From: Microbacterium oxydans
GTDB taxonomy: Bacteria > Actinomycetota > Actinomycetes > Actinomycetales > Microbacteriaceae
Assembly: GCF_026559675.1 (NCBI RefSeq)
Contig: NZ_CP092891.1
Coordinates: 3,658,001 to 3,722,000, forward strand
Direction of reading: 5' to 3'
DNA: 64,000 nucleotides
The stretch's first letter is position 1; every line of letters starts with the position of its first letter. Shown piece after piece: positions 22,011-37,986 of this stretch. The position numbers and the translations under genes are program-made. Under the pieces are notes generated by a model. That model worked only from the letters and a program-made list of their open reading frames with translations, was not told the DNA's origin and made no database searches.

Positions 22011-23375
22011 TCAGCGAGCGGTACGACCGAGCTTCGCCGAGGCGACGTCGGTCAGGGTGCGGTTCGCCGTCTCGGGCGCGAAGAGCTGCGAGACGATCGC
22101 GCCGATCACGCAGATCACGGCCATGATCCCGATCGCGACCGGCGCGTTCCAGGCCAGCAGCTGCGGGAACAGGAAGGTGCCGACCGCCGAGCCGACGCGC
22201 GTCATCGAGGTCGCGAACCCGACGCCCGTCGTGCGGATGCTCGTGGGGAACAGCTCCATCGGATAGACGCCGCACAGCACCGATGCGACGCCGTACGCGA
22301 AGAGGTAGACGAAGAAGCACGCGATGATCACCGGACCGGGCAGCGCCCGCTCGAAGATCACGAGCACCAGCGCCGCGGACATCACCCAGAACGGGATGAT
22401 CAGCAGCTTGCGGCGTCCGACCCGGTCGATGAGCAGGGTGCCGAGCAGCACGCCGACGACCACGACCACGGTGCCGAGCAGCGCGGTGAGGATGGGGTTC
22501 TCGATGCGGAGCGACTCGTACACGCCGGCCTGGAAGAAGATGATCGCGAAGTAGGGCAGCACGAGCGCCATCCAGAACGCGCAGACGAACACGGTGCGTC
22601 CGAGCTGGCCCGGACGGAACAGGGCGCGGATGCTGGTGTGCTCGGACTGCTCCCGTTCGAAGTCCCCGTGCTCGAGCTTCCAGCCGAGCCGGTTCAGCAC
22701 CTCGCGGGCTTCCTCCACCCGCCCCTTCGACAGCAGCCAGCGCGGGGACTCCGGGAGACCGTGCCGGGCGATGAGGCAGAGGATGGCCGGGACCGCCGCG
22801 GAGACGAGCACCCAGCGCCACGCGTCGGGGTGCGACACGGTGATGAGGAACCCGATCAGGAACGCGATCATGTACCCCACGTTCCAGGCGATCTGCAGGC
22901 TGGAACCCAATCGACCGCGCACCGTTCGCGGCGCGAACTCGCTGAGCAGCGGGGTGCCGATCGCGTAGTCGGCTCCGACGGCGAGCCCGAGGATCACCGC
23001 GAGCACGAACATCTGCCACGGCTCCTGCACGAAGAACATCAGCACGGCCGCCACCACGAAGCACGCCAGATCCGCGATGAACAGCGGCCGCCGTCCGTAC
23101 CGGTCGGTCAGCCAGCCGAACAGGAACCCGCCGATGAAGATGCCGATCAGCGTCGCGGAGGAGATGAGTCCGAGCCAGAGGTCATCGACGCCGAGCTCCG
23201 TGCGGAACGTCTGCAGCGCGAGCGTGACACCGATCACCGCGAAGATGTAGCCGTCGATGAACATGCCACCTGCGGTCACGATCGTGAGACGCGTGAGGAA
23301 GCGCCGTGCCTGCGGATTCATCCGCTCGGCATCGCTTCCGACATTGACCAGCCCTGTGGGCGCCGGCTGAGACAT
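22011..23375 (-). CDS. MFS metabolite:proton symporter of the Fae cluster
   Basis: 454 residues from ATG 23375; an in-frame ATG at 23402 is possible. Twelve membrane segments in two six-helix halves split by a central loop (~220-260). Family landmarks: GWLTDRYGRRPLF after helix 2-3 and LIDRVGRRKLL in the second half, as in the NiaP/sugar-porter-like metabolite symporters. Adjacent to the IclR gene and the Fae operon, and preceded by the same ATATGGCAAC element found before the regulator, so it is the likely importer of the cluster substrate. Confidence 0.85.
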   Translation of the reverse strand: MSQPAPTGLVNVGSDAERMNPQARRFLTRLTIVTAGGMFIDGYIFAVIGVTLALQTFRTELGVDDLWLGLISSATLIGIFIGGFLFGWLTDRYGRRPLFIADLACFVVAAVLMFFVQEPWQMFVLAVILGLAVGADYAIGTPLLSEFAPRTVRGRLGSSLQIAWNVGYMIAFLIGFLITVSHPDAWRWVLVSAAVPAILCLIARHGLPESPRWLLSKGRVEEAREVLNRLGWKLEHGDFEREQSEHTSIRALFRPGQLGRTVFVCAFWMALVLPYFAIIFFQAGVYESLRIENPILTALLGTVVVVVGVLLGTLLIDRVGRRKLLIIPFWVMSAALVLVIFERALPGPVIIACFFVYLFAYGVASVLCGVYPMELFPTSIRTTGVGFATSMTRVGSAVGTFLFPQLLAWNAPVAIGIMAVICVIGAIVSQLFAPETANRTLTDVASAKLGRTAR

Positions 23376-23501
23376 CGTTGTACCGGTTTCCTCTCTCATC
23401 ATCGAGTTCGTCGTCGTGACACGCCCTCACCATCGGGGTGCATGACATCGCGAACGAACCGATGCTCGCCCGTCCTCTCCTTATGTGCAAATCATGTAGG
23501 C

Positions 23502-23512
23502 GATATGGCAAC
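23502..23512. promoter_or_regulatory. IclR operator half-site upstream of the MFS gene
   Basis: GATATGGCAAC at 23502-23512. Its last ten bases are the reverse complement of GTTGCCATAT at 24388-24397 (before the IclR gene), and the full 11-mer recurs at 37092-37102 (before the osmoprotectant operon). It is about 127 bases upstream of the MFS start. Confidence 0.5.
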
Positions 23513-23516
23513 TCGG

Positions 23517-24374
23517 TCAGGCGTCCGAGCGGTCCGCGTAGCCCAGCTGCCGGGAGAGCTCCGCCGCCGCCGAGGAGACGTAACGAGCGAGGCTCTCCAG
23601 TCGGTCTCCGATGCGCATCTTCGGCGCGCTCACGTTGAGGGCGGCGATGATCCGCCCGTTGTAGTCCCGCACCGGCGCGGACGCACCGACCACGCCGAGT
23701 TCGAGCTCTTCGTCCAGCAGCGCATAGCCCGTCTCGCGGATCCGCTCGAGCTCCGACCGCAGCGAGGGCAGGTCCGAGACGATGACCTTGTCGGCGGGCG
23801 GCGCCTGCAGCACCGCGAACCCCGCGGAGTGCGAGGGAAGCGGCCCGACGATGACCTGATCCTGGCCGTGCTCCTCGTACCACCGCTCGAGCGCGACCTC
23901 GTCCCAGTCGCTCAGCAGTGCCCGCCCCGAAGGAGTGCGCCAGGCCGCGGTCGTGACACCCTCCCAGCCGGTCGTGCGGAACTCGTGCGGACTCAGCTCG
24001 CTCGCAATGGTGAGCACGTTGCCGCCCCGGAGCACGCAGAGGTGAGTGGTCTCGCGAGCCTGCTGCGCGGTCCTGCGCAGGATCGGACGCGACTTCCAGA
24101 CCAGTCGGCTCTCGAGGGTGAGGCCGGCCATCGCATACAGGCGCGACCCGAGGCGGTAGGCGAGCGTGCTCTCGTCGCGCTCCACGAGCCCGGCCTCGGC
24201 GAGGGTCGCGAGAGACCGCGAGACGACGGCCTTGTCGCGCCCGGTGAGCTGGGCGACACGGACGACGCCGAGACCACTCGGGGCGGCTTCCGGACTGCCG
24301 AGAATCTCGAGGATCTCGATGTCACGGGTGAGGCCGGAGGTGTTCCGACGGGGGACGGTGACTTCGCTGCTCAT
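23517..24374 (-). CDS. IclR-family regulator of the Fae cluster
   Basis: 285 residues from ATG 24374 (GAGG just upstream). N-terminal winged HTH ~15-78 (VVRVAQLTGRDKAVVSRSLATL) and a C-terminal IclR effector domain ~90-275. IclR regulators typically bind a small acid and control an adjacent catabolic operon. It lies between the MFS carrier and the divergent Fae operon, so it probably controls both; a shared motif suggests it also touches the osmoprotectant ABC operon. Confidence 0.9.
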   Translation of the reverse strand: MSSEVTVPRRNTSGLTRDIEILEILGSPEAAPSGLGVVRVAQLTGRDKAVVSRSLATLAEAGLVERDESTLAYRLGSRLYAMAGLTLESRLVWKSRPILRRTAQQARETTHLCVLRGGNVLTIASELSPHEFRTTGWEGVTTAAWRTPSGRALLSDWDEVALERWYEEHGQDQVIVGPLPSHSAGFAVLQAPPADKVIVSDLPSLRSELERIRETGYALLDEELELGVVGASAPVRDYNGRIIAALNVSAPKMRIGDRLESLARYVSSAAAELSRQLGYADRSDA

Positions 24375-24387
24375 GCCCTCATCGTAG

Positions 24388-24418
24388 GTTGCCATATTTG
24401 CATCAGCAAGTGGCAAAA
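24388..24418. promoter_or_regulatory. Divergent promoter/operator of the IclR and Fae operons
   Basis: GTTGCCATAT (24388-24397), then TTTGC, and TGGCAA (24411-24416) 13 bases beyond. TTGCCA (24389-24394) and TGGCAA (24411-24416) are inverted copies of one another. The element is AT-rich compared with its surroundings and lies between the two starts. Best candidate for the IclR binding site. Confidence 0.6.
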
Positions 24419-24477
24419 AGGCATCGCCGTTCGTAGTGTGTTCTCGCCAGCACCTCGATGGAGAGAAAGGACCCCAC

Positions 24478-24987
24478 ATGAGCGATCCGAGAATCGGAGA
24501 GAGCTTCGTCGGCGAGGGCGTCAATGCCGCCCACATCAACACGGTCGCGGGAGCACGTTCCGGCCCCGCAGGCACCGCCTGGGCCACCGCCCTCGGCTCC
24601 CCCAGCACCGGTCACGTCCCGTTCGTCGCCGTGCTCCAGCCGTCGCTGCCCGTGAAGCCGCTCACCCTCTTCGTCACCAAGTCTGCACCCGACTCGGACG
24701 CGCACGGCCTCATGATCTGGGGTCCCGCGCAGGCCGGCGTCGCCGCAGGTGTCGCCGATGCCGTCGCGGAGGGCGTCATCACCGAGGAGCAGGCCGACAC
24801 CGACGTGATCATCGCGGCCGTGTGGGTGAACCCCGGCGCCGACGACGCCGACGCCGTCTACCGGCACAACCGCGAGGCCACACGCACCGCCCTGCACAAT
24901 GGGGTCGAGCACCTGCCGGCGCTGGCCGACGTGCTCGCCGCCCGCAACGAACCCCGCAACCCCTTCTACACGGCACCGGCCGACTGA
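24478..24987 (+). CDS. Formaldehyde-activating enzyme (Fae) homologue
   Basis: 169 residues from ATG 24478 with AAAGGA upstream. Matches Fae along its whole length: IGESFVGEGVNAAHIN, GPAGTAWATALGSPSTGH, GLMIWGPAQAGVAAGVADAV, DTDVIIAAVWVNPGADD. H19 falls where Fae has its catalytic histidine (H17 in Methylorubrum). Classical Fae joins formaldehyde to tetrahydromethanopterin, a cofactor actinobacteria are not expected to make; no other gene of that pathway is here. It leads an operon of sugar- or polyol-type enzymes, so it may handle formaldehyde released by them or act as a related carbonyl-adding enzyme. Confidence 0.85.
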   Translation: MSDPRIGESFVGEGVNAAHINTVAGARSGPAGTAWATALGSPSTGHVPFVAVLQPSLPVKPLTLFVTKSAPDSDAHGLMIWGPAQAGVAAGVADAVAEGVITEEQADTDVIIAAVWVNPGADDADAVYRHNREATRTALHNGVEHLPALADVLAARNEPRNPFYTAPAD

Positions 24988-25009
24988 TCCGCAGAGAGAC
25001 GCACCCCTG

Positions 25010-25942
25010 ATGACTGAGAACCTCCCCACCGTCGGCTTCATCGGCCTCGGCAGCATGGGCAGCGGCATGACCCGCAACCTGCAGGCCGCGGGATTCCCGC
25101 TGGTGGTGACGGACCTCCGCCCGGAGGCGGCCGCAGAGCTCGTCGCCGGCGGCGCCCGCTGGGTCGACACCGCCGCCGCCGTCGCCGCGAACAGCGATCT
25201 CGTGATCACCATGCTGCCGACGCCGCGGCACGTCGCCGATGCGCTGCACGGCGCGGAGGGGATCCTCGCCGGCATCGCCGACGGCGGCACCTGGATCGAC
25301 ATGTCGACGTCCGTCCCGGAGGTCGCGAACGCCGTGCGCGCCGACCACGCCGCCCGCGGTCTGCGCGTGCTGGACGCCCCGGTCAGCGGCATGTCGGTCG
25401 GGGCCGCGAACGGCACTCTCCAGATCTTCATCGGCGGCGACGCGGAAGACGTGGAGCGCCTGCTCCCGGTGTTCCACGCGATGGGCGATCCGGACCGCGT
25501 CCTGCACGTGGGCGCGCACGGCGCCGGATACGCCGTGAAGCTCATGATCAACCAGCTCTGGTTCACCCACCTCGTCGCGACCGCCGAGGTGCTCTCGGTC
25601 GGCGTCAAGGCGGGCGTCGACCTCGAGGTGCTCCGCCGCTCGCTCGTGGCGAGCCCGGCGAACAGCAACTTCCTCGAGCACGATGTGCTGTCGATCCTCG
25701 ACCACGGCGACTACGACGAGGGGTTCGCCCTGGTGCTCGCTTGCAAGGACCTCGGCCTCTCGGTCGACCTCGCACGCTCCGTCGGCATGCCGTTCGAGCT
25801 CTCGGCCCTGGTCGAGCAGCAGTTCCGCCGCGCGAAGGCCATGTTCGGCGACCGCGCCGGTGAGATGACCCCCTTCAAGCTCTACGAAGACCTCGTCGGC
25901 GCACCACTGCGCCGCACCCCCGCGGAGGAGATCGCACGATGA
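25010..25942 (+). CDS. NAD(P)-dependent beta-hydroxyacid dehydrogenase (3-HIBADH/GlxR type)
   Basis: 310 residues. Rossmann motif GFIGLGSMGSGM at 9-20, substrate loop DAPVSGMSVGA at 122-132 and catalytic K177 (GYAVKLMINQ). The family oxidises or reduces beta-hydroxyacids such as 3-hydroxyisobutyrate or tartronate semialdehyde/glycerate. In this operon it probably acts on a hydroxymethyl-bearing acid. Ends in an ATGA overlap with the aldehyde dehydrogenase. Confidence 0.88.
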   Translation: MTENLPTVGFIGLGSMGSGMTRNLQAAGFPLVVTDLRPEAAAELVAGGARWVDTAAAVAANSDLVITMLPTPRHVADALHGAEGILAGIADGGTWIDMSTSVPEVANAVRADHAARGLRVLDAPVSGMSVGAANGTLQIFIGGDAEDVERLLPVFHAMGDPDRVLHVGAHGAGYAVKLMINQLWFTHLVATAEVLSVGVKAGVDLEVLRRSLVASPANSNFLEHDVLSILDHGDYDEGFALVLACKDLGLSVDLARSVGMPFELSALVEQQFRRAKAMFGDRAGEMTPFKLYEDLVGAPLRRTPAEEIAR

Positions 25943-27432
25943 GCCAGCCCGCTCCCCTGGATGAGACCTCCCTGGTCGCCGACCTTCCCGTCGACCTCTA
26001 CATCGACGGCCAGTGGCGCCCGTCCTCCACTGGCAACCGCTTCGACGTGATCGACCCGTCCACCGAGCAGGTGCTCGCGACCGTCGCCGACGCCTCGCCG
26101 GACGACGGCGACGCCGCCCTCGCCGCCGCGCACGCGGCACAGAAGGCCTGGGGCCGCACCGCACCGCGGGAACGCGCCGAGATCCTCCGGCGCGCGTTCG
26201 ACCTGGTCACGGAGCGCGCCGAGGAGTTCGCCCTCACGATGACGCTCGAGATGGGCAAGCCGCTGGCCGAGGCGCGCGGGGAGGTCGCCTACGGTGCCGA
26301 GTTCCTGCGCTGGTTCAGTGAGGAGGCCCCGCGCATCTCCGGCCGCTACGCCACGGCGCCAGACGGCCGCAACCGCCTCGTCGTTGTGCAGCGCCCGGTC
26401 GGACCGAGTCTCTTCATCACGCCGTGGAACTTCCCGCTGGCGATGGCGACCCGGAAGATCGCCCCGGCGATCGCGGCCGGATGCACCATGGTGCTCAAGC
26501 CCGCCGCCCTCACGCCGCTGACCGCGCTCCTGCTCACGCAGGTGCTGGAGGAGGCAGGACTCCCCCGGGGCGTGCTGAACGTCATCCCGACGAGCCGTGC
26601 CGGCGCCGTGACCGCCCCGCTCATCGCGGACGAGCGCCTGCGCAAGCTGTCGTTCACGGGGTCGACCGAGGTCGGACGACGACTCATCGCCGATTCCGCC
26701 CATCAGGTGCTGCGCGTCTCGATGGAACTCGGCGGCAACGCCCCGTTCATCGTGTTCGAGGACGCGGACATCGATGCCGCGGTAGATGGCGCCGTCGCGG
26801 CGAAGATGCGCAACGGCGGTGAGGCGTGCGTCGCGGCCAACCGCTTCCTCGTGCACGACTCCGTCGCTGCGGAGTTCTCCGAGAAGTTCACCGCGCGGAT
26901 CGCCGCGTTCGTCCCGGCCCGCGGCACTGAGCCGCACTCGACCATGGGCCCGCTGGTCGACGCCGCGACGCGCGACAAGGTCGCCGAGCTCGTGACCGGC
27001 GCCGTCGCACAGGGCGCTCGCGTCGCCGTCGGCGGCAACGCGATCCCCGGCGCCGGCTACTTCTACGAGCCGACCGTGCTCGTCGACGTCCCCGAGGGCG
27101 CCGACATCCTCGGCGAGGAGATCTTCGGACCGGTGGCCCCGATCACCACGTTCTCCACCGAGGAGGAGGCGATCCGACTCGCGAACGCCACCGAGTTCGG
27201 GCTGGTGTGCTTCGCGTACACGCGCGACCTCGACCGCGGTCTGCGCCTGGCAGAGGAGCTGGAGACCGGCATGCTCGGCCTGAACGCCGGCGTGGTCTCC
27301 AACCCCGCAGCGCCCTTCGGCGGCGTGAAGCAGTCCGGCCTGGGCCGCGAGGGCGGGTTCGAGGGCATCCACGAGTATCTCGAGACCACCTACGTCGGTA
27401 TCGCGGATCCCTTCGCTTCACGGGAGGCTTGA
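25939..27432 (+). CDS. NAD(P)-dependent aldehyde dehydrogenase, SSADH/GabD-like
   Basis: 497 residues, complete ALDH. FTGSTEVGR at 239-247, catalytic E263 (SMELGGNAPF) and nucleophile C297 (GGEACVAANR). The closest style is succinate-semialdehyde or glycolaldehyde-type dehydrogenases of the GabD group. Placed between the hydroxyacid dehydrogenase and an SDR, so it likely oxidises an aldehyde intermediate of the unidentified pathway. Confidence 0.9.
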   Translation: MSQPAPLDETSLVADLPVDLYIDGQWRPSSTGNRFDVIDPSTEQVLATVADASPDDGDAALAAAHAAQKAWGRTAPRERAEILRRAFDLVTERAEEFALTMTLEMGKPLAEARGEVAYGAEFLRWFSEEAPRISGRYATAPDGRNRLVVVQRPVGPSLFITPWNFPLAMATRKIAPAIAAGCTMVLKPAALTPLTALLLTQVLEEAGLPRGVLNVIPTSRAGAVTAPLIADERLRKLSFTGSTEVGRRLIADSAHQVLRVSMELGGNAPFIVFEDADIDAAVDGAVAAKMRNGGEACVAANRFLVHDSVAAEFSEKFTARIAAFVPARGTEPHSTMGPLVDAATRDKVAELVTGAVAQGARVAVGGNAIPGAGYFYEPTVLVDVPEGADILGEEIFGPVAPITTFSTEEEAIRLANATEFGLVCFAYTRDLDRGLRLAEELETGMLGLNAGVVSNPAAPFGGVKQSGLGREGGFEGIHEYLETTYVGIADPFASREA

Positions 27433-27435
27433 GTC

Positions 27436-28215
27436 ATGGAGATCACCGACTTCAGCACGGCGCTGTTCTCGCTCGCCGGCAAACGCGCGATGGTGACCGG
27501 CGGCAACGGCGGTCTCGGTCGTGCGTTCTCCGTGGCACTCGCGGCCGCGGGCGCCGATGTCTTCGTCCCCTCGCTCGCCGACGACGACGGCACGACGCGT
27601 CGCCTGGTCGAGGAGACCGGACGCCGCTACGTGTTCGCTTCGGTGGATGCGACCGAGGCGGGTGCACCGCAGCGCATGGTCGACCAGTGCATCGACGAGC
27701 TCGGTGGCCTCGACATCCTCGTCAACGCCGCGGGCATCAACCTGCTCAGCGAGGACGTGCGCGAGTTCGGCCGTGAGAAGTGGGACCCGATGATCGGGGT
27801 GAACCTCACGGCGACGTTCGAGTTCTCCGAGGCCGCCGCGCGGACCTTCATCCCCCAGGGATCGGGGAAGATCGTCAACATCGCCTCCCTGTTCGCGTTC
27901 CTCGGCGGCAAGCAGTCCCCCGCCTACGCCGCGAGCAAGGCCGGTGTGATGGGCTTCACGAAGGCGTACGCCGACGAGCTCGGTGCCTACGGCATCCAGG
28001 TGAATGCGATCGCTCCCGGGTACTTCGCCACTCCCCTCACCGCGCAGACCAGAGCGGATGAGACGGCGAACTCGCGCATCGTCGACCACGTCCCCGCCGG
28101 CCGCTGGGGCGACCCGGCCGACCTGATGGGCGCACTCGTGTTCCTCTCCAGCCCCGCCGCGAACTACGTCAACGGACACACGCTGGTCGTCGACGGCGGC
28201 TACCTCGTCCGCTGA
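27436..28215 (+). CDS. SDR oxidoreductase (KduD-like) of the Fae cluster
   Basis: 259 residues, classical SDR: TGGNGGLG at 21-28, NAAG at 97-100, S151, Y164 and K168. Overall closest in feel to 2-deoxy-D-gluconate 3-dehydrogenase/KduD enzymes, so a polyol or sugar-acid hydroxyl is the probable target. Starts 3 bases after the ALDH stop. Confidence 0.88.
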   Translation: MEITDFSTALFSLAGKRAMVTGGNGGLGRAFSVALAAAGADVFVPSLADDDGTTRRLVEETGRRYVFASVDATEAGAPQRMVDQCIDELGGLDILVNAAGINLLSEDVREFGREKWDPMIGVNLTATFEFSEAAARTFIPQGSGKIVNIASLFAFLGGKQSPAYAASKAGVMGFTKAYADELGAYGIQVNAIAPGYFATPLTAQTRADETANSRIVDHVPAGRWGDPADLMGALVFLSSPAANYVNGHTLVVDGGYLVR

Positions 28216-28262
28216 CGCCCGCGCAGACACCACCCGCAGACCACCCCTTCCACCAGGAGAAG

Positions 28263-29729
28263 ATGATGGCAGATTCCCGTTCCCCGCTCACCGGCGCGCA
28301 GATCGTCGAGCAGCTCACCGCGCTGGTCGGCCCGGACCAGATCGACACCGACGAGACCGCGTTGCGCGAGGCGAGCGTCGACCGCTTCAAGAAGTACTCC
28401 GCCGTGCACGGCATCTTCGACGGGCCGTTCCCCTCGGCGATCGTCTACCCGACGTCGACCGAGCAGGTCGCGCAGATCCTGCGCTTCGCCAACGAGAACC
28501 TCATCGCCGTGGTGCCGCGCACCGGCCGGACGGCGACCGAGGGCGGACTCGAGGTCGTCGTGCCGGACACGATCGTGCTCGACGGCTCGCGGATGGACCG
28601 CACGCTCGCGGTGAACACCACCGACATGATGGTGACGGTGCAGGCCGGCGCTCCGCTGCAGCGGGTCGAGGATGAGCTGCGTGCGATCGGCTACACGACG
28701 GGCCACTCTCCGCAGTCGAAGCCCCTCGCACAGTACGGCGGCCTCGTCGCCACGCGCTCGATCGGGCAGTTCTCCACCCTCTACGGCGGCATCGAGGACA
28801 TGGTCGTCGGGCTGGAGGCCGTGCTGGCCGACGGCACCGTCACGCGCATCAAGAACGTGCCGCGCCGGGCGGCCGGCCCCGACATCCGCCACCTCATCAT
28901 CGGCAACGAGGGCGCGATGAGCTTCATCACCGAGGTCACCGTCAAGATCTGGCCGTACCAGCCCGAGAACCTGCGCTTCTTCGGCTTCCTGACGGAGGAG
29001 TTCGGCACCGGTGTCGAGGCCCTGCGTCAGCTGGTCACCCAGGGGTACCGCCCCTCGGTCGCGCGGGTCTACTCGCCGGAGGACGCCCGTCAGCACTTCT
29101 CGCACTTCTTCGACGACAAGAACGTCGTCGTGCTCGTGGCGGAGGGCCCGAAGCGCCTCGCCGACGCGACGGCCGAGGCGATCGTGGAGGTGTTCGCCGA
29201 CAAGGAGCACGTGCGCGTCGACGACGCCCTGATCGAGCAGTGGTTCCAGAACCTCAACTGGGGGCAGGACAAGATCGACCGCGAGAAGGCCGACATGCTC
29301 ACGAACGCCCACCTCGGCTACACGACTGAGGTGTCGGTCGACTGGTCGCGGGTCGTGGATCTCTACGAGGCCGTCATCCGCCGCGTGCGCGAGGAGTTCC
29401 CGCGTGCCGCCGATCTGACCATGCTCGGCGCGCACTCCTCGCACAGCTACCAGACGGGCACGAACCTGTACTTCGTGTACGACTACAACATCACCGTCGA
29501 GCCGCGACAGGAGATCACCGAGTACCACGAGCCGCTGAACGCGATCGTGGTCGAGGAGGCGCTGCGCCACGGCGGCTCCATGGTGCATCACCACGGCATC
29601 GGCAAGTACCGCACGCCGTGGACGCACGAGGAGCACGGCTCGGCGACGGTGCTGCTGGAGCGCCTGAAGGCCGTCCTCGACCCGAACGGCATCATGAACC
29701 CCGGCACCATCTTCGCGCTGGAGGACTGA
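28263..29729 (+). CDS. FAD-linked oxidase resembling alkyl-DHAP synthase
   Basis: 488 residues from ATG 28263 (AGGAG upstream; next codon also ATG). FAD_binding_4 domain ~60-235 with VVPRTGRTATEGGLEVV and RSIGQFSTLYGGIEDMVVG, then the FAD-oxidase C domain. The segment RRAAGPDIRHLIIGNEGAMSF is the hallmark of the alkyldihydroxyacetone-phosphate synthase (AGPS) subfamily. A lipid-ether role is unlikely in this operon; an FAD-dependent oxidation of a polyol, hydroxyacid or its phosphate is more plausible. Ends one base before the kinase start. Confidence 0.88.
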   Translation: MMADSRSPLTGAQIVEQLTALVGPDQIDTDETALREASVDRFKKYSAVHGIFDGPFPSAIVYPTSTEQVAQILRFANENLIAVVPRTGRTATEGGLEVVVPDTIVLDGSRMDRTLAVNTTDMMVTVQAGAPLQRVEDELRAIGYTTGHSPQSKPLAQYGGLVATRSIGQFSTLYGGIEDMVVGLEAVLADGTVTRIKNVPRRAAGPDIRHLIIGNEGAMSFITEVTVKIWPYQPENLRFFGFLTEEFGTGVEALRQLVTQGYRPSVARVYSPEDARQHFSHFFDDKNVVVLVAEGPKRLADATAEAIVEVFADKEHVRVDDALIEQWFQNLNWGQDKIDREKADMLTNAHLGYTTEVSVDWSRVVDLYEAVIRRVREEFPRAADLTMLGAHSSHSYQTGTNLYFVYDYNITVEPRQEITEYHEPLNAIVVEEALRHGGSMVHHHGIGKYRTPWTHEEHGSATVLLERLKAVLDPNGIMNPGTIFALED

Positions 29730-29730
29730 G

Positions 29731-31143
29731 GTGGGGTTCGTCGTCGCGATCGACAACGGATCGCAGTCGACCAAGGTCCTCATCGTGGACGAGGGCGGGC
29801 GCGTGCATGCGTTCGCCCGGGTCGGGCTGCGTCCCTACGAGACACCGGCTCCGGGGCGCAGCGTGCACCCCGAGGACGACGTGTGGGACTCGATCGCGGC
29901 GGCGTGCCGCATCGCGATGTCGCGCTTCACCGGCGACGTCGCGGACATCACGGCGGTGGGCCTGTGCACCATCCGCTTCTGCCGCGCGCTGCTGCGTGCC
30001 GACGGCAGCCTGGCCGAGCCCCTGCTGAGCTGGATGGACGAGCGCGTCGGCCGGGCCCACGAGCCGGCCGACGGTGTCGCGCGCGTGACGACCTCGTCCG
30101 GATACGTGTCCCATCGCCTGACCGGACGCTTCACCGACGCGGCGGCGAACTACCAGGGCGTGTGGCCGATCGACCTCGAGACCTGGGCGTGGAGCGAGAA
30201 CCCCGAGGCCTACGAGCGCACGGGCATGACGAGGGACATGCTGTCCGCGCTCGTCGAACCGGGCGGGCTCCTCGGCGAGATCACGCGAGACGCCGCCGCT
30301 GAGATGGGACTGCCGGTGGGCCTCCCGGTGTTCGCGACGGCGAACGACAAGGCGGTCGAGGCACTGGGCGCCGGACTCGACTCCCCGGACGACGTCCTGC
30401 TCTCCCTCGGCACCTACATCGCCGCGATGACCGTCTCCGACTCCCCCGACAGCGGACGGGACCACTGGAGCAACTTCGGCTCACGCCCCGGCCAGTACCT
30501 CGCGGAGTCCACGGGCATCCGCCGCGGCATGTGGACGGTGAGCTGGCTCCGCTCGCTCGTGCAGACCTCGGGCGACGGAGGCGACGACATCTACGCCCTG
30601 GACCGCGAACTCGGTGAGGCCGCGTCCGCCGTGCCCCCGGGTTGCGAGGGGATCGCCGCGGTCCTCGACTGGCTCGCACCCGCCGAGGCGCCGCACCGTC
30701 GCGGCGGGTTCGTCGGCTTCTCGGGCATGCAGGGGCGCGGGCACCTGCACCGCGCGATCCTCGAGGCCATCGCCTTCACCATGGCCGACCACATCGACGC
30801 GATGGCCGAAGAACTCGGCCGCCCGTTCCGCTCGGTCATCGTGACCGGCGGCGGCGCGCAGTCCCCCCTGCTGGTGAGCATCATCTCGGACGTGCTCGGC
30901 CTGCCGGTGCGCAGGGCGGGCGTGGACGACGCGGCCGGCATCGGTGCCGCCGTGTGCGCGGCCGTCGGCAGCGGACTGCACCCGGATTGGGACACGGCCG
31001 TCCGGGCGATGGTCGGTCGCACCGAGGAGCAGCCCCCGTCGGCCGCAGCCGAGGCTTACGGCCGTCTGCGGCCGTGGCACCGCGGTATCCGCGAGCAGAT
31101 GGACGCGCTCACCTCGTGGTCCGCCGCGCACCTCCCCGCCTGA
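29731..31143 (+). CDS. FGGY-family carbohydrate kinase
   Basis: 470 residues, GTG start. N-terminal phosphate loop VAIDNGSQSTKVLIVD at 4-19, second nucleotide motif VTGGGAQSPLL near 375 and the usual two-domain FGGY layout. Members phosphorylate glycerol, xylulose, ribulose, erythritol and similar; the sequence does not settle which. Next to AGPS-like oxidase and GldA-like dehydrogenase, a C3-C5 polyol or ketose is expected. Confidence 0.88.
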   Translation: MGFVVAIDNGSQSTKVLIVDEGGRVHAFARVGLRPYETPAPGRSVHPEDDVWDSIAAACRIAMSRFTGDVADITAVGLCTIRFCRALLRADGSLAEPLLSWMDERVGRAHEPADGVARVTTSSGYVSHRLTGRFTDAAANYQGVWPIDLETWAWSENPEAYERTGMTRDMLSALVEPGGLLGEITRDAAAEMGLPVGLPVFATANDKAVEALGAGLDSPDDVLLSLGTYIAAMTVSDSPDSGRDHWSNFGSRPGQYLAESTGIRRGMWTVSWLRSLVQTSGDGGDDIYALDRELGEAASAVPPGCEGIAAVLDWLAPAEAPHRRGGFVGFSGMQGRGHLHRAILEAIAFTMADHIDAMAEELGRPFRSVIVTGGGAQSPLLVSIISDVLGLPVRRAGVDDAAGIGAAVCAAVGSGLHPDWDTAVRAMVGRTEEQPPSAAAEAYGRLRPWHRGIREQMDALTSWSAAHLPA

Positions 31144-31185
31144 CCCCGTTCTCCCCCTCCCCTCCTCCGACCCGAAAGGTCTCCG

Positions 31186-32289
31186 ATGTCCCGCGCCTAC
31201 GCCGGCCCCGGCAAGTACATCCAACGTCGCGGCGAGATCTCCCGCCTGTCCCAGCACCTGGCACCGCTGGGTACGCGTGCGCTCGTGCTCATCGACCCGT
31301 TCCTGCTCGAGCGGCTGCGTGACGTCATCTCGACCGACCTCACGGGTGCCGGCATCGACGCACGGATCGAGGCGTTCGGCGGCGAGACGACGGATGCCGA
31401 GATCGATCGGGTCACGGCCATCGCCCGTGAGCACGGTGCCGACACCCTGGTGGCCGTGGGCGGAGGCAAGACGGCGGACACCGTGAAGATCGCCGCGCAC
31501 GCCGTCGGCGCGTGGACCGTCATCGTGCCGACCATCGCGTCGACGGATGCGCCGTGCAGCGCCGTCGCGGTGCGGTACACGCCCGAAGGTGTCTGGAACG
31601 GCTCCGACCGTCTGCCGCGCAACCCCGACCTCGTGGTGGTCGACAGCGAGATCGTCGCTGGCGCTCCGGCCCGCTTCCTGGTGTCCGGCATGGGCGACGC
31701 GCTGTCCACGTGGTTCGAGGCCCGCTCGAATCTCGAGTCGCGCACGCCGAACTACGTGCAGGGCGGTTTCCCGCCCACCCTCACGGCGATCGCCCTGGTG
31801 AAGGCCTGCCATGAGGCGCTCCTGACCGATGGTGTGAAGGCGAAACTCGCCGTCGAGCAGGGGCTGCACACCCTCGCCGTCGAGAACGTGATCGAGGCGA
31901 ACATGCTCCTCTCGAGCGTGGGCTTCGAGAACCTGGGCTGTTCGGCCGCGCACGCCATCCACGACGGCCTCACCGCCATCCCGGAGGCCCACGGCGTGCT
32001 GCACGGCGAGAAGGTCGCGTTCGGCACGCTCTGCCTGCTCCTCCTGGAGAACCGTCCGTTCTCCGAGCTGCTCGAGATGATCGAGTTCTGCGAGGCGGTC
32101 GGACTGCCGACGACCCTCGCCGAACTCGGCATCACGACGAACACGCGCGAGATCGCGGAGCGGATCGGCGAGGGAGCGATGGCCGAGGGCGAGTCGGCCG
32201 TCGCCTGCCCCGTGGAGGTGTCGGTCCCGATCATCCGCGACGCGATCCTGGCCCTCGACGCGATCACGGCGGCACGTAAGCACGCCTGA
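31186..32289 (+). CDS. gldA: Glycerol dehydrogenase-like metal-dependent alcohol dehydrogenase
   Basis: 367 residues. GGGKTADTVK at 92-101 for NAD and the three zinc ligands D171, H256 and H273, in the positions seen in GldA. It should interconvert a polyol and its ketone (glycerol/dihydroxyacetone or a longer analogue). Last gene of the Fae operon, followed by a strong terminator. The symbol denotes the family, not a proven substrate. Confidence 0.88.
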   Translation: MSRAYAGPGKYIQRRGEISRLSQHLAPLGTRALVLIDPFLLERLRDVISTDLTGAGIDARIEAFGGETTDAEIDRVTAIAREHGADTLVAVGGGKTADTVKIAAHAVGAWTVIVPTIASTDAPCSAVAVRYTPEGVWNGSDRLPRNPDLVVVDSEIVAGAPARFLVSGMGDALSTWFEARSNLESRTPNYVQGGFPPTLTAIALVKACHEALLTDGVKAKLAVEQGLHTLAVENVIEANMLLSSVGFENLGCSAAHAIHDGLTAIPEAHGVLHGEKVAFGTLCLLLLENRPFSELLEMIEFCEAVGLPTTLAELGITTNTREIAERIGEGAMAEGESAVACPVEVSVPIIRDAILALDAITAARKHA

Positions 32290-32302
32290 CCCCACGCAAC
32301 CG

Positions 32303-32338
32303 AAGGAGCCCCGCACGATGTCCGTGCGGGGCTCCTTT
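32303..32338 (+). terminator. Rho-independent terminator of the Fae operon
   Basis: AAGGAGCCCCGCAC (32303-32316) and GTGCGGGGCTCCTT (32324-32337) make a perfect 14-base stem with a 7-base loop, followed by T. Begins 13 bases after the GldA stop. Confidence 0.9.
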
Positions 32339-32363: not shown

Positions 32364-33470
32364 TCAGCCCACCGTGTACCGCGCGACGGCGTCGTGGTCG
32401 ATCTCGACGCCGAGGCCCGGGGCATCGGGCACGAGCAGGTCGCCGTGCGCGTCGATCATCAGGGGCCGCAGGAAGAAGTCACGGCGCTCCGGCGTCCATC
32501 CCGGCGGGTCGAAGGGGAACTCGATGTAGGGCCGGGCGTCGATGCCCGCCGCGACCTGCAGGTTCGCGAGCAGTCCGAGACCGTTCGACCAGGTGTGCGG
32601 CGTGAACATGCGGTGCTTCGCGTCGGCGGCCTCGGCGACCTGCCGGGCGCGGTACATGCCGACCGCGAGCGCGACGTCCGGCTGGTAGATGTCGAAGGCG
32701 TCCTGCTCGACGAGCGCGAGCATCTCGGGGAGACTCCGCACCATCTCCCCGCCCGCGACCTGGATGCCGGTCTCGGCGCGCACTCTGCGGGCACCGGCCA
32801 CATCCACCTGCGGCAACGGCTCCTCGAGCCAGAGCACCCCGAGGTCATGCAGCTCCGCTGCGAGGCTCCGCACCTTCGCGAGCGGCAGCGCGGCCTCGAT
32901 GTCGCCCGACATCCGCCACATCTGGTTGAGGTCGACCATGAGGTCGAAGTCCTCGCCGACCGCTTCCCTCGCGGCCCGGACGGAGGCGATCCCCTCGCGC
33001 AGCCGGTCGCGGGCGATCCGGATCTTCATGGCCCGGAAGCCGAGCTCCTTGGCGGCCACGGCGGCCTCGGCCCGAGCCTCCGGGGCCTTCAGCTCGCCGG
33101 AGGAGGCGTAGGCGGGCAGTCGGTCGCGGGCGCCGCCGAAGAATGCGGCCACGGGGAGGCCCGCGACCTTGCCGATGATGTCCCACAGGGCGGCTTCGAG
33201 GGGCCAGTACCGGCCGCCGTGGAAGTTGATGGTCTCGATGCGGCGCACCTGACTGAGGATCTGCATCGGGTCCGTGCCGAGGAACAGGTCACGGTAGGCG
33301 TCGAAACCGTCCATGGTGTCGCCAGAGCCGTAGCCGGTGATGCCCTCGTCGGTGCGGACGGTGACCAGGGTGGCGGGGAAGTCGGTGCGGGGGTTCGGGT
33401 CCCAGGCCGCGTGGAACGGCGGCGTGAGCGGCAGGTTCAGTCGGGTGAGTTCGATCGCGGTGATCTTCAT
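32364..33470 (-). CDS. Enolase-superfamily sugar-acid dehydratase or racemase (MR/MLE)
   Basis: 368 residues from ATG 33470. Capping N-domain then a TIM barrel with metal ligands D180 (MVDLNQMW), E216 (WLEEPL) and E242 (AGGEM), D265 (QPDV) and H292 (TPHTWSNG). The usual catalytic KxK at the end of strand 2 reads K149-I-R151. Members dehydrate or racemise sugar acids; the exact substrate is not readable. It stands alone between the Fae-operon terminator and the osmoprotectant-operon terminator, so it seems to be a single transcription unit. Confidence 0.82.
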   Translation of the reverse strand: MKITAIELTRLNLPLTPPFHAAWDPNPRTDFPATLVTVRTDEGITGYGSGDTMDGFDAYRDLFLGTDPMQILSQVRRIETINFHGGRYWPLEAALWDIIGKVAGLPVAAFFGGARDRLPAYASSGELKAPEARAEAAVAAKELGFRAMKIRIARDRLREGIASVRAAREAVGEDFDLMVDLNQMWRMSGDIEAALPLAKVRSLAAELHDLGVLWLEEPLPQVDVAGARRVRAETGIQVAGGEMVRSLPEMLALVEQDAFDIYQPDVALAVGMYRARQVAEAADAKHRMFTPHTWSNGLGLLANLQVAAGIDARPYIEFPFDPPGWTPERRDFFLRPLMIDAHGDLLVPDAPGLGVEIDHDAVARYTVG

Positions 33471-33509
33471 GACGTCGTCTCTCGTCGGTGCGTGCGGGTC
33501 GGGATGCAG

Positions 33510-33546
33510 CACGGCCCCCGTTCCGCGAGGCGGATCGGGGGCCGTG
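33510..33546 (-). terminator. Terminator of the osmoprotectant ABC operon
   Basis: CACGGCCCCCG (33510-33520) and CGGGGGCCGTG (33536-33546), perfect 11-base stem with a 15-base loop, starting 4 bases after the binding-protein stop on the minus strand. Confidence 0.75.
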
Positions 33547-33550
33547 GGGA

Positions 33551-34486
33551 TCAGATGAAGTCGTTCTCCTTCAGCCAATCCGTGGCGACATCCGCCGGAT
33601 CGTCGCCGTCGACGTCGACCCGGGCGTTGAGCTTCTGCATCTCCTCGACCGTGAGCAGCTCCGACACCGGGGCGAGGACGTCGGCGATCGCCGGGAACTC
33701 GTCGAGGGTGTCCTGCTTGAGCGTGAAGGCGCCCTGGTAGGAGGGGAAGAACTGCTTGTCGTCCTCCATCACGACCAGGCCCAGGGCCGGGATGCGGCCG
33801 TCGGTCTGGAACACCTCGCCGAAGTTGCAGTCGTCGCCCTTCGCGGTGGCGGTGTAGATGACGCCCGTGTCGAGCATCGCGACGTTCGAGTCGGGCACGT
33901 CGATGCCATACTCCGCCTTCAGCCCCGGCCAGCCGTCGTCACGGGTGGAGAACTCGCTCTCGACGCAGAAGGTCGCATCCGCGGGGTCGAGCTTCGCGAC
34001 GTCGGAGAGGGTCTTCACACCGAGCTTCTTCGCCTCGTCTGCACGGATCGCGAAGGCGTAGGTGTTGTTCAGGGGTGCCGGGTCGAGCCAGGCGATGCCC
34101 TTCTCCGCATCGGCCTTCTTCGTGGCCTCGAACTGCTCCTCCGCGCCCTTCACCGGCGCGGTGTTGCCGTTGTAGGTGATCCACGACGTGCCGGTGTACT
34201 CCCAGTAGCCGAGGAACTGGTCGGTCTCGAGGGCCTGGCGGACGTTCGCGGACCCGACGAGGTTCGTGTTCGCCTCGGTGGAGGCACCGTGGGCGTTGAG
34301 CAGCTGCGAGGTGATGTGGGCGAGGATGAACTGCTCGGAGAAGTCCTTGGCGCCGATGTCGCCGGACAGCCCGGTCAACTCGTCGCCCTTGCTTCCGCTC
34401 GCGGCGTCCGTGCCACCGGAGCAGCCGGCCAGGGTGAACGCGGCGGCCGCAGCCAGCGCGACGATGGGGAGGAGCTTGCGCCTCAT
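33551..34486 (-). CDS. Osmoprotectant/quaternary-amine ABC binding lipoprotein (OpuCC/OsmX-like)
   Basis: 311 residues. Lipoprotein signal with lipobox LAGC ending at C22; AGGAG before the ATG. The body starts with IGAKDFSEQFILAHITSQLL and has GYWEYTGTSWITY, landmarks of the OpuAC/OpuCC type II binding proteins that take glycine betaine, choline or carnitine. Last gene of a permease-ATPase-permease-binding protein operon, which is the OpuC/OsmVWXY order. Confidence 0.88.
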   Translation of the reverse strand: MRRKLLPIVALAAAAAFTLAGCSGGTDAASGSKGDELTGLSGDIGAKDFSEQFILAHITSQLLNAHGASTEANTNLVGSANVRQALETDQFLGYWEYTGTSWITYNGNTAPVKGAEEQFEATKKADAEKGIAWLDPAPLNNTYAFAIRADEAKKLGVKTLSDVAKLDPADATFCVESEFSTRDDGWPGLKAEYGIDVPDSNVAMLDTGVIYTATAKGDDCNFGEVFQTDGRIPALGLVVMEDDKQFFPSYQGAFTLKQDTLDEFPAIADVLAPVSELLTVEEMQKLNARVDVDGDDPADVATDWLKENDFI

Positions 34487-34524
34487 TGTGTATCTCCTAT
34501 TCGGGTGGGTGATGCAGGATGCGG

Positions 34525-35307
34525 TCAGATGCCGCGCGGGGTGAGGATGTCTTCGGCGACGGCGGCGATCCAGTCGATGAGCAGCGCGATGCAGGCGACG
34601 AGCACGGCGCCCACCACGAGCACGGGGTAGCGCTGCAGTTTCAGGCCGTTGACGATCATGTCGCCGAGGCCGCCGGCGTTGATGAAGGTCGCGATGGTCG
34701 CGACGCCGACGCAGAACACGAGAGCGGTGCGCAGCCCGGCCAGGATCACCGGCACGGCCAGCGGCAGCTCGATCCGCGCCAGGACACCGGCCGGGGTCAT
34801 GCCCATGCCGCGCGCGGACTCGCGCACGTTCGGGTCGACCTGCTGGATGCCGATCATCGTGTTGCGCAGCACGGGAAGGAACGAGTAGATCACCAGCGCG
34901 ACCAGTGCCGTCGTGTATCCCGTCTGCCAGATGATGGCCAGCAGGATCACGACACCGACGGCGGGGGTGGCCTGGCCGACGTTGGCGAGTGCCAGGACCA
35001 CGGTGCGGAACGCCTTCGACGGGACCTTCGCGACGGCGATGCCGAGCGGGATCGCGAGGACGGCGACGAGGGCGGACGCCGCGATCGTGAGGGAGAGGTG
35101 CTCCCCGACGCGGAGGCTGATGTAGTCCCAGTTGATGGTGCGCTGCTCGATCGAGTCGAGCTGCAGGGTCGACACGTACAGGTAGAGCAGGGCGAGGACG
35201 ACGACCACGACGAGCGGCGTGATGAACCGCTTCAGGGTGATGATCCGGCGCTTCGGCGGCACGATCCGCACCGCCGACAGCGCCTGGGTCTCGGTGACGA
35301 CCGTCAT
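34525..35307 (-). CDS. Osmoprotectant ABC permease (OpuCB/OpuCD-like)
   Basis: 260 residues, about six membrane segments. Family signature around residue 170: RESARGMGMTPAGVLARIELPLAVPVI-type EAA loop (positions ~160-190), also seen in its sister permease at 36334. Overlaps the ATPase stop by four bases. Confidence 0.88.
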   Translation of the reverse strand: MTVVTETQALSAVRIVPPKRRIITLKRFITPLVVVVVLALLYLYVSTLQLDSIEQRTINWDYISLRVGEHLSLTIAASALVAVLAIPLGIAVAKVPSKAFRTVVLALANVGQATPAVGVVILLAIIWQTGYTTALVALVIYSFLPVLRNTMIGIQQVDPNVRESARGMGMTPAGVLARIELPLAVPVILAGLRTALVFCVGVATIATFINAGGLGDMIVNGLKLQRYPVLVVGAVLVACIALLIDWIAAVAEDILTPRGI

Positions 35308-36341
35308 CGCGCACCCGACCGGCTCAGGTGCGCGGGGTCGGCGCCGAGCACGTCCGCGATCCGCTGCAGATCGATCGATCCCACCGCGGTTCCGGTGTTG
35401 TCGACCACGTCGATCGACGGGGTGCCCGCCAGCACCAGCGTGTCCAGCGCATCGCGCAGGGTGGCGTCTGAGGCGACGCTCACCACTGAGGATCCGCCCG
35501 TCGACGACCCCAGTGCGGCCTCGGCGATCGGGATCAGGGCGAGACGCTTGAGCGCGGCGCCGTGCCCGATGAACGACCGCACATAGTCGTTGGCCGGAGC
35601 GGCGAGGATGTTGGCCGGGGTGTCGAACTGCTCGATCCGGCTGCGGTCGCTCAGCACGGCGATGCGGTCACCGAGGCGGATCGCCTCATCGAAGTCGTGC
35701 GTGACGAAGATGATGGTCTTGCCGATCGTGTCCTGCAGGCGGAGGAACTCGGCCTGCAGCTTCTCGCGCGTGATCGGGTCGGTCGCGCCGAACGGCTCGT
35801 CCATCAGCATCACGGGCGGGTCCGCCGCGAGGGCACGTGCGACACCGACACGCTGCTGCTGCCCGCCCGAGAGCTGCTTGGGGTAGCGACCGGCGAACTG
35901 TCCGGGATCGAGCTGGACCGTGAGGAGCAGTTCGTCGACGCGCTCCGCGATCCGCTGCTTCGACCACCCGAGCAGCTTCGGCACGACCGCGATGTTGTCG
36001 GCGATCGTCATGTGCGGGAACAGGCCGATCTGCTGGATGACGTAGCCGATGTGGCGACGCAGCTCGTTCGGGTTCAGGCCCATGACGTCCTGACCGCCGA
36101 CCGTGATCCGGCCGGAGGAGGGCTCGATGATCCGGTTGACCATCTTCATGGTGGTCGTCTTGCCGCAGCCCGAGGGGCCGACGAACATGACGAGTTCGCC
36201 GGGTGCGACCTCCATCGAGAAGTCCTCGACGGCCTTGACCGACTGGCCGGGATAGATCTTCGAGACATCTTCGAGGACGATGCCGGCGGCCTCGGAGGCG
36301 GGCTTCGCCCCGGTCGCGGTGCGGGTGGTGGAGTCAGACAC
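35304..36341 (-). CDS. Osmoprotectant ABC ATPase with C-terminal CBS region (OpuCA-like)
   Basis: 345 residues. ABC domain ~20-260 with Walker A GPSGCGKTT, signature LSGGQQQRVGVARAL and Walker B VMLMDEPFGATDP; then a CBS-like segment ~285-335 (ATLRDALDTLVLAGTPSIDVVD). CBS domains in OpuA/OpuC ATPases sense ionic strength or cyclic dinucleotides; only about one CBS repeat is clear here. Start overlaps the upstream permease stop by 8 bases. Confidence 0.9.
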   Translation of the reverse strand: MSDSTTRTATGAKPASEAAGIVLEDVSKIYPGQSVKAVEDFSMEVAPGELVMFVGPSGCGKTTTMKMVNRIIEPSSGRITVGGQDVMGLNPNELRRHIGYVIQQIGLFPHMTIADNIAVVPKLLGWSKQRIAERVDELLLTVQLDPGQFAGRYPKQLSGGQQQRVGVARALAADPPVMLMDEPFGATDPITREKLQAEFLRLQDTIGKTIIFVTHDFDEAIRLGDRIAVLSDRSRIEQFDTPANILAAPANDYVRSFIGHGAALKRLALIPIAEAALGSSTGGSSVVSVASDATLRDALDTLVLAGTPSIDVVDNTGTAVGSIDLQRIADVLGADPAHLSRSGAR

Positions 36342-36999
36342 GGAGCCCCCTCGGGGTGGTGAGACGTGAGATCAGGACGAATGCTCCGTCGACGAGCAGA
36401 GCGAGGATGACGACGCCGAGGGTGCCGGTGAGGGCGAAGTTCAGCGCGTTCAGGGACCCGAGCGACGACAGTCCCTGGAAGATGTATCGGCCGAGACCGG
36501 GGCCTGCGACGTAGGCCGCGATCGCCGCGATCCCGATCGTGAGCTGCGCGGCGACGCGGACACCGGTGAGGATGATCGGCCAGGCGAGCGGGAGCTGCAC
36601 GCGGAACAGCGTCATCGTGCTGCTCATCCCCATGCCTCGGGCGGACTCCATGATCGCCGGCGAGACGTCGCGCAGCCCGACAACCGTGTTGCGCACGATC
36701 GGCAGCAGCGAATAGAACACCAGCGCGACGACGGTCGGCGTCCAGCCCAGACCGAACAGCGGGGTGATCAGGGCCAGCAGCGCCAACGACGGGATCGTGA
36801 TGGCCACGCCGGCGGCGGCGATGGTGAAGGCGCGACCGGTCGGGCGGTTCCAGACCGCGATGCCCAGGAGCACGCCGATCGCGATCGCGATCACGGTGCT
36901 GAGTGCGACGACCGCGAGGTGCTGGAGCACCAGGTCGAGGATGTCGTCCCAGCGCTTCACCCAGAACTGGAGGAGACCGTCGGGGGTGAGTCCGTTCAC
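36334..36999 (-). CDS. Osmoprotectant ABC permease, first gene of operon
   Basis: 221 residues from GTG 36999, chosen because AGAGGAGG lies just upstream; the frame stays open to 37134. About five to six membrane segments with the EAA-type loop MESARGMGMSSTMTLFRVQLPLA-like (~115-137). Pairs with the permease at 34525. Upstream lies the GATATGGCAAC element shared with the Fae cluster. Confidence 0.86.
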   Translation of the reverse strand: MNGLTPDGLLQFWVKRWDDILDLVLQHLAVVALSTVIAIAIGVLLGIAVWNRPTGRAFTIAAAGVAITIPSLALLALITPLFGLGWTPTVVALVFYSLLPIVRNTVVGLRDVSPAIMESARGMGMSSTMTLFRVQLPLAWPIILTGVRVAAQLTIGIAAIAAYVAGPGLGRYIFQGLSSLGSLNALNFALTGTLGVVILALLVDGAFVLISRLTTPRGLRV

Positions 37000-37091
37000 A
37001 CTGCCTCCTCTCATCTTCGAGATGCGCCGGACCATTCCGGCGTCGTCTGTAAGGTAACGAGGCTGTCGTGATTGTCGCAACCGAAGGTGTT

Positions 37092-37924: not shown

Positions 37925-37951
37925 CCCCCCATTCAACCCCGCCGAGGCGCG

Positions 37952-37986
37952 CACACCCGCTCGGAAGCGGACGGCTTCCGGGCGGG
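37952..37986 (-). terminator. Terminator of the uronate operon
   Basis: CACCCGCTCGGAAGC (37952-37966) and GCTTCCGGGCGGGTG (37972-37986): 15-base stem with a single G:T-type mismatch and a 5-base loop, 7 bases after the mannonate dehydratase stop on the minus strand. Confidence 0.8.

Follow-up and report, generated by a model that had tools for sequence, protein, structure and literature searches.

The 64,000-nucleotide stretch of the Microbacterium oxydans genome analyzed here (assembly GCF_026559675.1, contig NZ_CP092891.1, positions 3,658,001 to 3,722,000) is referred to as the window, and all coordinates are window positions. It carries a real and conserved betaine catabolic unit, undescribed within the literature searched, that includes a homolog of the formaldehyde-activating enzyme Fae. 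Seven plus-strand genes form one operon (24478–32289). They encode the Fae-like protein (24478..24987, identified by family models, tree and fold), a beta-hydroxyacid dehydrogenase of the 3-hydroxyisobutyrate dehydrogenase/GarR type (HIBDH; 25010..25942), an aldehyde dehydrogenase resembling succinate-semialdehyde dehydrogenase (SSADH) and here called ALDH1 (25939..27432), a KduD-like short-chain dehydrogenase/reductase (SDR; 27436..28215), a 488-residue FAD flavoprotein resembling alkyl-dihydroxyacetone phosphate synthase (AGPS; 28263..29729), an FGGY kinase (29731..31143) and a GldA-type glycerol dehydrogenase (31186..32289). HIBDH and ALDH1 were assigned by family match, as was the IclR-family regulator encoded on the minus strand (23517..24374); ALDH1 falls below the curated SSADH cut-off (TIGR01780, 545.2 versus 646.35 bits). 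Beyond the regulator, also on the minus strand, is a YgcS-like major facilitator superfamily (MFS) carrier (22011..23402). All nine genes are open frames of the families, and at the places, given in the first-pass annotation.

A hairpin with 14-bp arms (32303–32316 and 32324–32337) and a 7-base loop, read directly from the sequence, ends the operon as that annotation had proposed, although a pattern scan for promoters and terminators reported no terminator, this one included. Just past the hairpin lies a convergent, minus-strand gene set: an enolase-superfamily (MR/MLE) enzyme, here MLE (32364..33470, assigned by family match and residue set), followed by a four-gene OpuC-type ATP-binding cassette (ABC) transporter (33551–37038). 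The latter consists of an OpuAC-type substrate-binding lipoprotein (33551..34486) and, from locus comparison and family matches, a permease (34525..35307), an ATPase (35304..36341) and a second permease whose start codon is uncertain (36334..37038). The genes at 32364–37038 are part of the Fae unit. The co-regulated, conserved catabolic module described earlier is supported, but its proposed end at 32338 is not. In the nearest relative, locus L002 (Fae 88% identical), the transporter genes come after the FGGY gene and share its strand, with MLE starting just where the retrieved sequence ends; in locus L137 all eleven genes are on one strand, in the order Fae-HIBDH-ALDH1-SDR-AGPS-FGGY-ABC-MLE, preceded by IclR. 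Compared with these orders, the window seems to have its transporter and MLE genes turned round as a block and a gldA gene added.

An operator-like stretch lies between the IclR and Fae genes (24389..24416) and was recognized by counting recurrent words. The word TTGCCATA occurs in 34 of 61 IclR-Fae intergenic regions; among random windows of 280 bp it occurs in 15 of 1220. The complete inverted repeat seen here, TTGCCA-N-TGGCAA, is found in only one of the 61 regions and in none of the random windows, and so lacks conservation.

The unit was compared with Fae loci of other species (the best 80 of 81 from a scan of species genomes), the cassette classes being assigned with cut-offs of 40% identity and 11 kb. 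Two cassettes alternate beside a common core. Type A, comprising SDR, the AGPS-like protein and FGGY, is present in 33 of the 80 loci (32 without MLE and one with it), and type B, comprising MLE, a second aldehyde dehydrogenase (ALDH2) and an iron-type alcohol dehydrogenase (Fe-ADH), is present in 30. The remaining 17 have neither, some of them being cut by contig ends (L018, L029, L058). The core shared by both types consists of IclR (30/32 type-A, 1/1 type-A plus MLE and 25/30 type-B loci), the betaine-type ABC transporter (binding protein in 31/32, 1/1 and 28/30), Fae, HIBDH (32/32 type-A, 29/30 type-B) and the SSADH-like ALDH1 (31/32 and 26/30). The co-occurrence of core and cassette, no more than 11 kb apart in 63 of the 80 loci, is beyond chance. 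They are mostly on the same strand, and divergent in L009, L014, L016 and L019. On the Fae protein tree the type-A label requires two changes and the type-B label three, against means of 23.8 and 22.7 for shuffled labels, so that the core was inherited and only a few exchanges of the cassette took place. At E ≤ 1e-60, 19 of the 21 type-A genomes searched (21 of 33) had no MLE. Distant Fae and MLE pairs (Fae 37–42%, MLE 44–45% identical) were also seen in L108, L110 and L111, where the paired ATPase genes nearby belong to a different type of ABC transporter.

Conservation of the seven-gene set extends to the core with its cassette, but not to GldA, for which 160 loci, some of them short, gave no match at E ≤ 1e-20. 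GldA, which passes the PRK09423 subfamily score (441 versus 336 bits), is a local addition outside the conserved set. Fae has a patchy distribution. Counting the window's own genome, it was found at the level of the phylum in 17 of 396 genomes; the AGPS-like gene was found in 24 of 299 genomes of the family (E ≤ 1e-60) and in 2 of 394 of the class (E ≤ 1e-100). Longer stretches were taken from nine of the 24 AGPS-bearing family genomes; the Fae core is present in two of them (L137 and L138), and a third (L136) is a distant homolog. The MFS gene adjoins the IclR gene in L050 and L138 also.

The binding protein has an OpuAC-type domain and is related to the ProX, OpuBC and EgtU structures. In EgtU, Tyr and Phe residues form a cage with an Asn at its base, and Lys, Thr and Arg hold the carboxylate (PMC9732360). 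The alignments place a corresponding betaine cage at Y98, Y144, F227 and Y251 with N142 at the base, and carboxylate residues at K48, T101 and R183; all but F227 are at a spacing that matches the EgtU pattern. F227 aligns with a Phe of OpuBC-derived chains, one cage Tyr being Phe here. AfProX was compared too, at Y63 and F107 and at further presumed positions. Among 64 homologs of the binding protein, 42 have all six motif patterns tested, 15 more have five and seven have fewer; one of these patterns does not represent a residue of the cage. This ProX/EgtU-like residue pattern is most naturally read as serving a ligand that combines a carboxylate with a quaternary ammonium group. The protein thus shares its domain, cage and carboxylate residues with known quaternary-ammonium transporters of the OpuC/ProX/EgtU type, but unlike them is linked to catabolic genes, and its ligand is probably larger than glycine betaine. 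The MFS carrier, which had been taken as the uptake system, is a probable second route; the conserved carrier is the ABC transporter.

The Fae-like protein passes both TIGR03126 (152.0 bits, cut-off 118.05) and PF08714 (173.9 bits, cut-off 27), its model retains the Fae fold (TM 0.83 to 1y60), and it has the His19 common to its clade and pterin-type Fae. It differs from the tetrahydromethanopterin (H4MPT)-dependent enzymes in other respects. Its clade of 82 proteins stands apart from six pterin-type Fae sequences, including that of M. extorquens and one that adjoins mch in Azoarcus; the branch between the two groups has full support and exceeds four changes per column. Residues invariant in the pterin type are replaced: 30 columns switch class between 64 type-A and type-B rows and the six pterin-type rows. 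At 35, 81 and 116 Trp takes the place of Phe, and columns 46 and 76 have His. MCH (methenyl-H4MPT cyclohydrolase, PF02289), the sole marker of the H4MPT pathway that was searched, is absent from the genome. These differences tell against the formaldehyde-type handler proposed in the first-pass annotation. Plasmid records with Fae matches numbered 60, and contexts were examined in nine, four of which lack annotation there. In Caballeronia, Fae is accompanied by SSADH and by an aldo/keto reductase 73% identical to one that lies near a lyase and an aldehyde dehydrogenase in Vibrio. Fae plus SSADH and aldehyde dehydrogenase plus lyase thus seem interchangeable, which makes an amine-eliminating role likelier than formaldehyde handling. 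The Fae-like protein is probably a C–N (trimethylamine) lyase, though it may have a formaldehyde role.

AGPS is the best solved relative of the window flavoenzyme by both sequence and fold, although the fold model (mean pLDDT 72) is weak in several stretches and D-lactate dehydrogenases follow closely. AGPS exchanges the group at C1 of an ester of dihydroxyacetone phosphate (DHAP); the reaction passes through an adduct at flavin N5 and is redox-neutral overall (PMC3509576). The window protein has the FAD_binding_4 and FAD-oxidase_C domains, and its H148, R268, Y403 and H442–H444 match H300, R419, Y578 and H615–617 of the guinea-pig enzyme. These six residues are invariant in all 42 relatives aligned, E. 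coli YgcU among them; the roles given to the guinea-pig residues are in part presumed. Fold and active-site-type residues are therefore shared with the eukaryotic alkyl-DHAP synthases of ether-lipid synthesis (AGPS/ADPS), but the window enzyme is shorter (488 versus 584–658 residues), leaves one arginine of those enzymes unmatched and is encoded in a catabolic operon. The operon suggests that the reaction would run in the reverse direction. Literature searches on AGPS residues and on bacterial ether cleavage gave nothing useful. In MLE, ten presumed active-site residues of the enolase superfamily are invariant in 33 of 33 sequences.

Clustered orthologs of the trio SDR, AGPS-like protein and FGGY kinase occur in E. 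coli as YgcW (60% identity), YgcU (60%) and YgcE (44%), and the MFS carrier is 35% identical to YgcS. The E. coli K-12 ygcU-ygcE region (L141, 9965–15375) is nearly universal in the species: of 5426 complete genomes 5350 match it, 5005 of them over at least 80% of its length. No functional assignment for the cluster was found in those portions of the literature that were searched. The cluster (ygcP-ygcQRS-ygcUW / yqcE-ygcE) shares the trio and the MFS gene with the window. Unlike the window, it adds an antiterminator-like gene and the flavoprotein genes for YgcQ, YgcR and YgcN, which we take to resemble electron-transferring flavoprotein (ETF) and its oxidoreductase, and has no Fae, HIBDH, SSADH, betaine ABC or MLE gene alongside.

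Contexts of the trio in other phyla come from E. coli K-12 and from plasmid records. The AGPS-like protein matched 42 such records, 28 at ≥55% identity and 12 at about 31–32%, and contexts were taken from six of the 28. In Vibrio pelagius the trio is near a carrier of the betaine/choline/carnitine transporter (BCCT) family, an aspartase-like lyase and a betaine-aldehyde-type aldehyde dehydrogenase. In Priestia megaterium it is near an IclR regulator, a YgcS-like MFS carrier (56% identical to YgcS and 38% to that of the window), an aspartase-like lyase, an aldehyde dehydrogenase and a zinc alcohol dehydrogenase. By score the lyases are related to aspartase and the aldehyde dehydrogenases are of the betaine-aldehyde type, though neither group reaches the curated cut-offs. 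These sets thus combine lyase, aldehyde dehydrogenase and alcohol dehydrogenase near the same trio as in the window, but with a lyase non-homologous to Fae where the Actinomycetota carry Fae. The trio was not found in stretches of Phaeobacter, Aminobacter and Phyllobacterium that contain aspartase-like relatives. Plasmids of two Enterococcus species have the trio with an osmoprotectant ABC transporter, ETF genes and an antiterminator responsive to glycerol 3-phosphate, and Ilyobacter has it with MFS and ETF genes. In S. clavuligerus the trio and such an antiterminator lie about 290 kb from an OpuC ABC-Fae-HIBDH-SSADH set on the same plasmid. Homologs of this antiterminator are beside the trio in E. 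coli (ygcP) also, and are encoded by the gene upstream of it in the family stretches L132 and L133. A Peribacillus plasmid (L152, 8998–11556) has an open frame that fuses an aspartase-like lyase to a BCCT betaine carrier. The fusion was dropped as functional proof, since both halves are truncated and a deletion between neighboring genes is more likely.

The reading of these data as a betaine carrier coupled to cleavage of a glyceryl-X compound is fairly strong. We tentatively propose, at a confidence slightly short of evenly balanced, that the unit, under IclR control, breaks down a water-soluble ether formed between glycerol and a betaine, the likeliest being glyceryl-O-(N,N,N-trimethyl)homoserine. 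This compound is the deacylated head of diacylglyceryl-trimethylhomoserine (DGTS), a phosphorus-free membrane lipid, and is the best single substrate candidate. We infer the substrate, the order of the steps and every reaction from the gene families, their conservation, the cassette swap, the betaine-type binding residues, the AGPS-type residues and the contexts in other phyla. The head group would be imported by the ABC transporter and perhaps also by the MFS carrier. In type A, SDR, possibly helped by GldA, would oxidize the glyceryl secondary alcohol and FGGY would phosphorylate the free primary alcohol. Together these steps would give exactly the alkyl-DHAP that the AGPS-like enzyme, working AGPS chemistry backwards, might cut to DHAP and the free hydroxy-betaine. 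In type B, Fe-ADH and ALDH2 would produce a 3-O-substituted glycerate, from which MLE would expel the same alcohol by beta-elimination, leaving pyruvate. In the core, HIBDH would then convert homoserine betaine to its semialdehyde, the Fae-like protein would remove trimethylamine and ALDH1 would oxidize the product to fumarate. The identity of the ether substituent as trimethylhomoserine is suggested by both cassettes making sense on one glyceryl-O-R, by the betaine carriers and by the aspartase-like lyases that recur near the trio. Homoserine betaine is itself reported as a free osmolyte (PMC13403184). The complete scheme, in which a DGTS pathway includes a flavin ether lyase (AGPS reversed), alkoxide elimination by an enolase-superfamily enzyme, a trimethylamine lyase with the Fae fold and glyceryl-ether cleavage by ygcU, ygcW and ygcE, is possible and appreciably more doubtful.

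Several other routes were considered and dropped. An aldolase route through 2-keto-4-hydroxybutyrate from tetronates would need an aldolase, and neither cassette encodes a member of such a family. For D-apiose and methylerythritol routes no gene set matches, and the betaine carrier would be left unexplained. The head group of diacylglyceryl-carboxyhydroxymethylcholine (DGCC) would free choline, which would not suit HIBDH.

A number of observations weigh against the betaine-ether proposal. The trio occurs without the Fae core in six of the nine longer family stretches (L132–L135, L139, L140), and in E. coli and Ilyobacter it accompanies MFS carriers with no adjoining betaine gene. Members of the Fae clade are found in unlike contexts, so the clade is wider than this pathway. 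In Paenibacillus (L079, 2924–11295) the gene is with an OpuC ABC transporter and D-hydantoinase, allantoinase-like/PuuE-like, epimerase-like and SDR genes, which suggests another substrate. In four Actinomycetota loci (L068, L103, L104, L106) it follows a HalD/2-oxoglutarate-oxygenase-like gene, possibly forming a demethylase or hydroxylase pair, and in L099 (6212–11342) it is with an ALDH1 homolog, a GABA-transaminase and a Na+/solute symporter. Enzymes of the HIBDH family act mostly on beta- and not on gamma-hydroxyacids, and no lipase is present in the unit. Mutagenesis of the Dictyostelium AGPS marks R352, Y508 and R447 as important (PMC3509576). R352 and Y508 are matched in the AGPS-like protein, and R447 is unmatched in a gapped alignment. 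R447 presumably corresponds to Arg515 of the guinea-pig enzyme. Finally, the AGPS-like gene has ETF genes next to it in Ilyobacter and on the two Enterococcus plasmids, and E. coli has YgcQ and YgcR alongside, the latter 25% identical to Enterococcus EtfB. Such genes in three genera suggest electron transfer and argue against a redox-neutral step.

This last point is the basis of an alternative that keeps the same betaine-ether logic, in which the AGPS-like/YgcU protein is an ETF-linked dehydrogenase of a phosphorylated glyceryl compound, with a GlpD-like outcome, and the ether is cut elsewhere. We regard it as unlikely, if still worth serious attention. The relatives of the protein include D-2-hydroxyacid dehydrogenases, which are near by fold too, but H148, Y403 and the HHH motif of the AGPS type are invariant in all 42 sequences, and the D-2-hydroxyacid relative 3pm9 has only one of the three His. 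ETF-like matches were found in just four of the 160 loci (L141, L145, L147, L151) and in none of the Actinomycetota, Priestia or Vibrio stretches, although a distant housekeeping ETF, which these organisms may use, would escape such a search. An improbable variant has as substrate the head group of the isomeric lipid DGTA (2-hydroxymethyl-N,N,N-trimethyl-beta-alanine), so that HIBDH oxidation, amine loss and retro-aldol cleavage would yield formaldehyde and Fae would handle the C1 unit. It would give HIBDH a true substrate of its type, a 3-hydroxyisobutyrate analog, and leave Fae a formaldehyde-related role, and in soil DGTA was counted together with DGTS (PMC9969633). The distance of the Fae-like protein from pterin-type Fae and the genome's lack of MCH speak against it, and the Priestia and Vibrio lyases fit instead the C4 aminodicarboxylate of the DGTS route.

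It is likewise improbable that the core degrades a simple betaine, such as carnitine or homoserine betaine, and that the cassettes serve an unrelated triose-yielding substrate. The separation of core and trio in S. clavuligerus, the family stretches with the trio alone and L052, which has the core without either cassette, are what this would predict; the close spacing of core and cassette in 63 of 80 loci is not, and in Enterococcus the trio by itself is coupled to an osmoprotectant transporter. Least probable is the substrate suggested in the first-pass annotation, a polyol or sugar acid, branched or with a hydroxymethyl group, that would be degraded with release of a C1 unit, taken as formaldehyde. 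FGGY, SDR, GldA, MLE and MFS do resemble polyol or sugar-acid enzymes and the Fae fold is kept, but GldA is not conserved, family scans of the unit's genes gave no aldolase, and betaine-type carriers accompany nearly all loci of both types, as BCCT and osmoprotectant carriers do the trio in other phyla.

Three further features flank the unit. An ECF-type sigma factor with a SnoaL-like tail is encoded near its MFS end (20112–21017, minus strand). At the other end an APH-family phosphotransferase-like gene (37175–37954, minus) separates the ABC operon from a second cluster of sugar-acid type (37994–42433, minus) with genes for an MR/MLE dehydratase-like protein, a mannitol-dehydrogenase-like protein, a xylose-isomerase-like TIM barrel and a Gfo/Idh/MocA protein.

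When phosphate is short, fungi, algae and some bacteria substitute betaine lipids for phospholipids. These lipids have been measured in soil, DGTS and DGTA together (PMC9969633). In the portions of the literature searched, no bacterial route for the breakdown of their head group is described, and no described pathway has the gene set of this unit, Fae with FGGY included, as the first-pass annotation had supposed. The unit is a probable betaine-lipid head-group degradation operon. This reading offers candidate substrates for Fae-like proteins in genomes that lack methanopterin and for the orphan ygc cluster kept by nearly all E. coli and, if true, would give its genes ygcU, ygcW and ygcE a function in cleaving glyceryl ethers.

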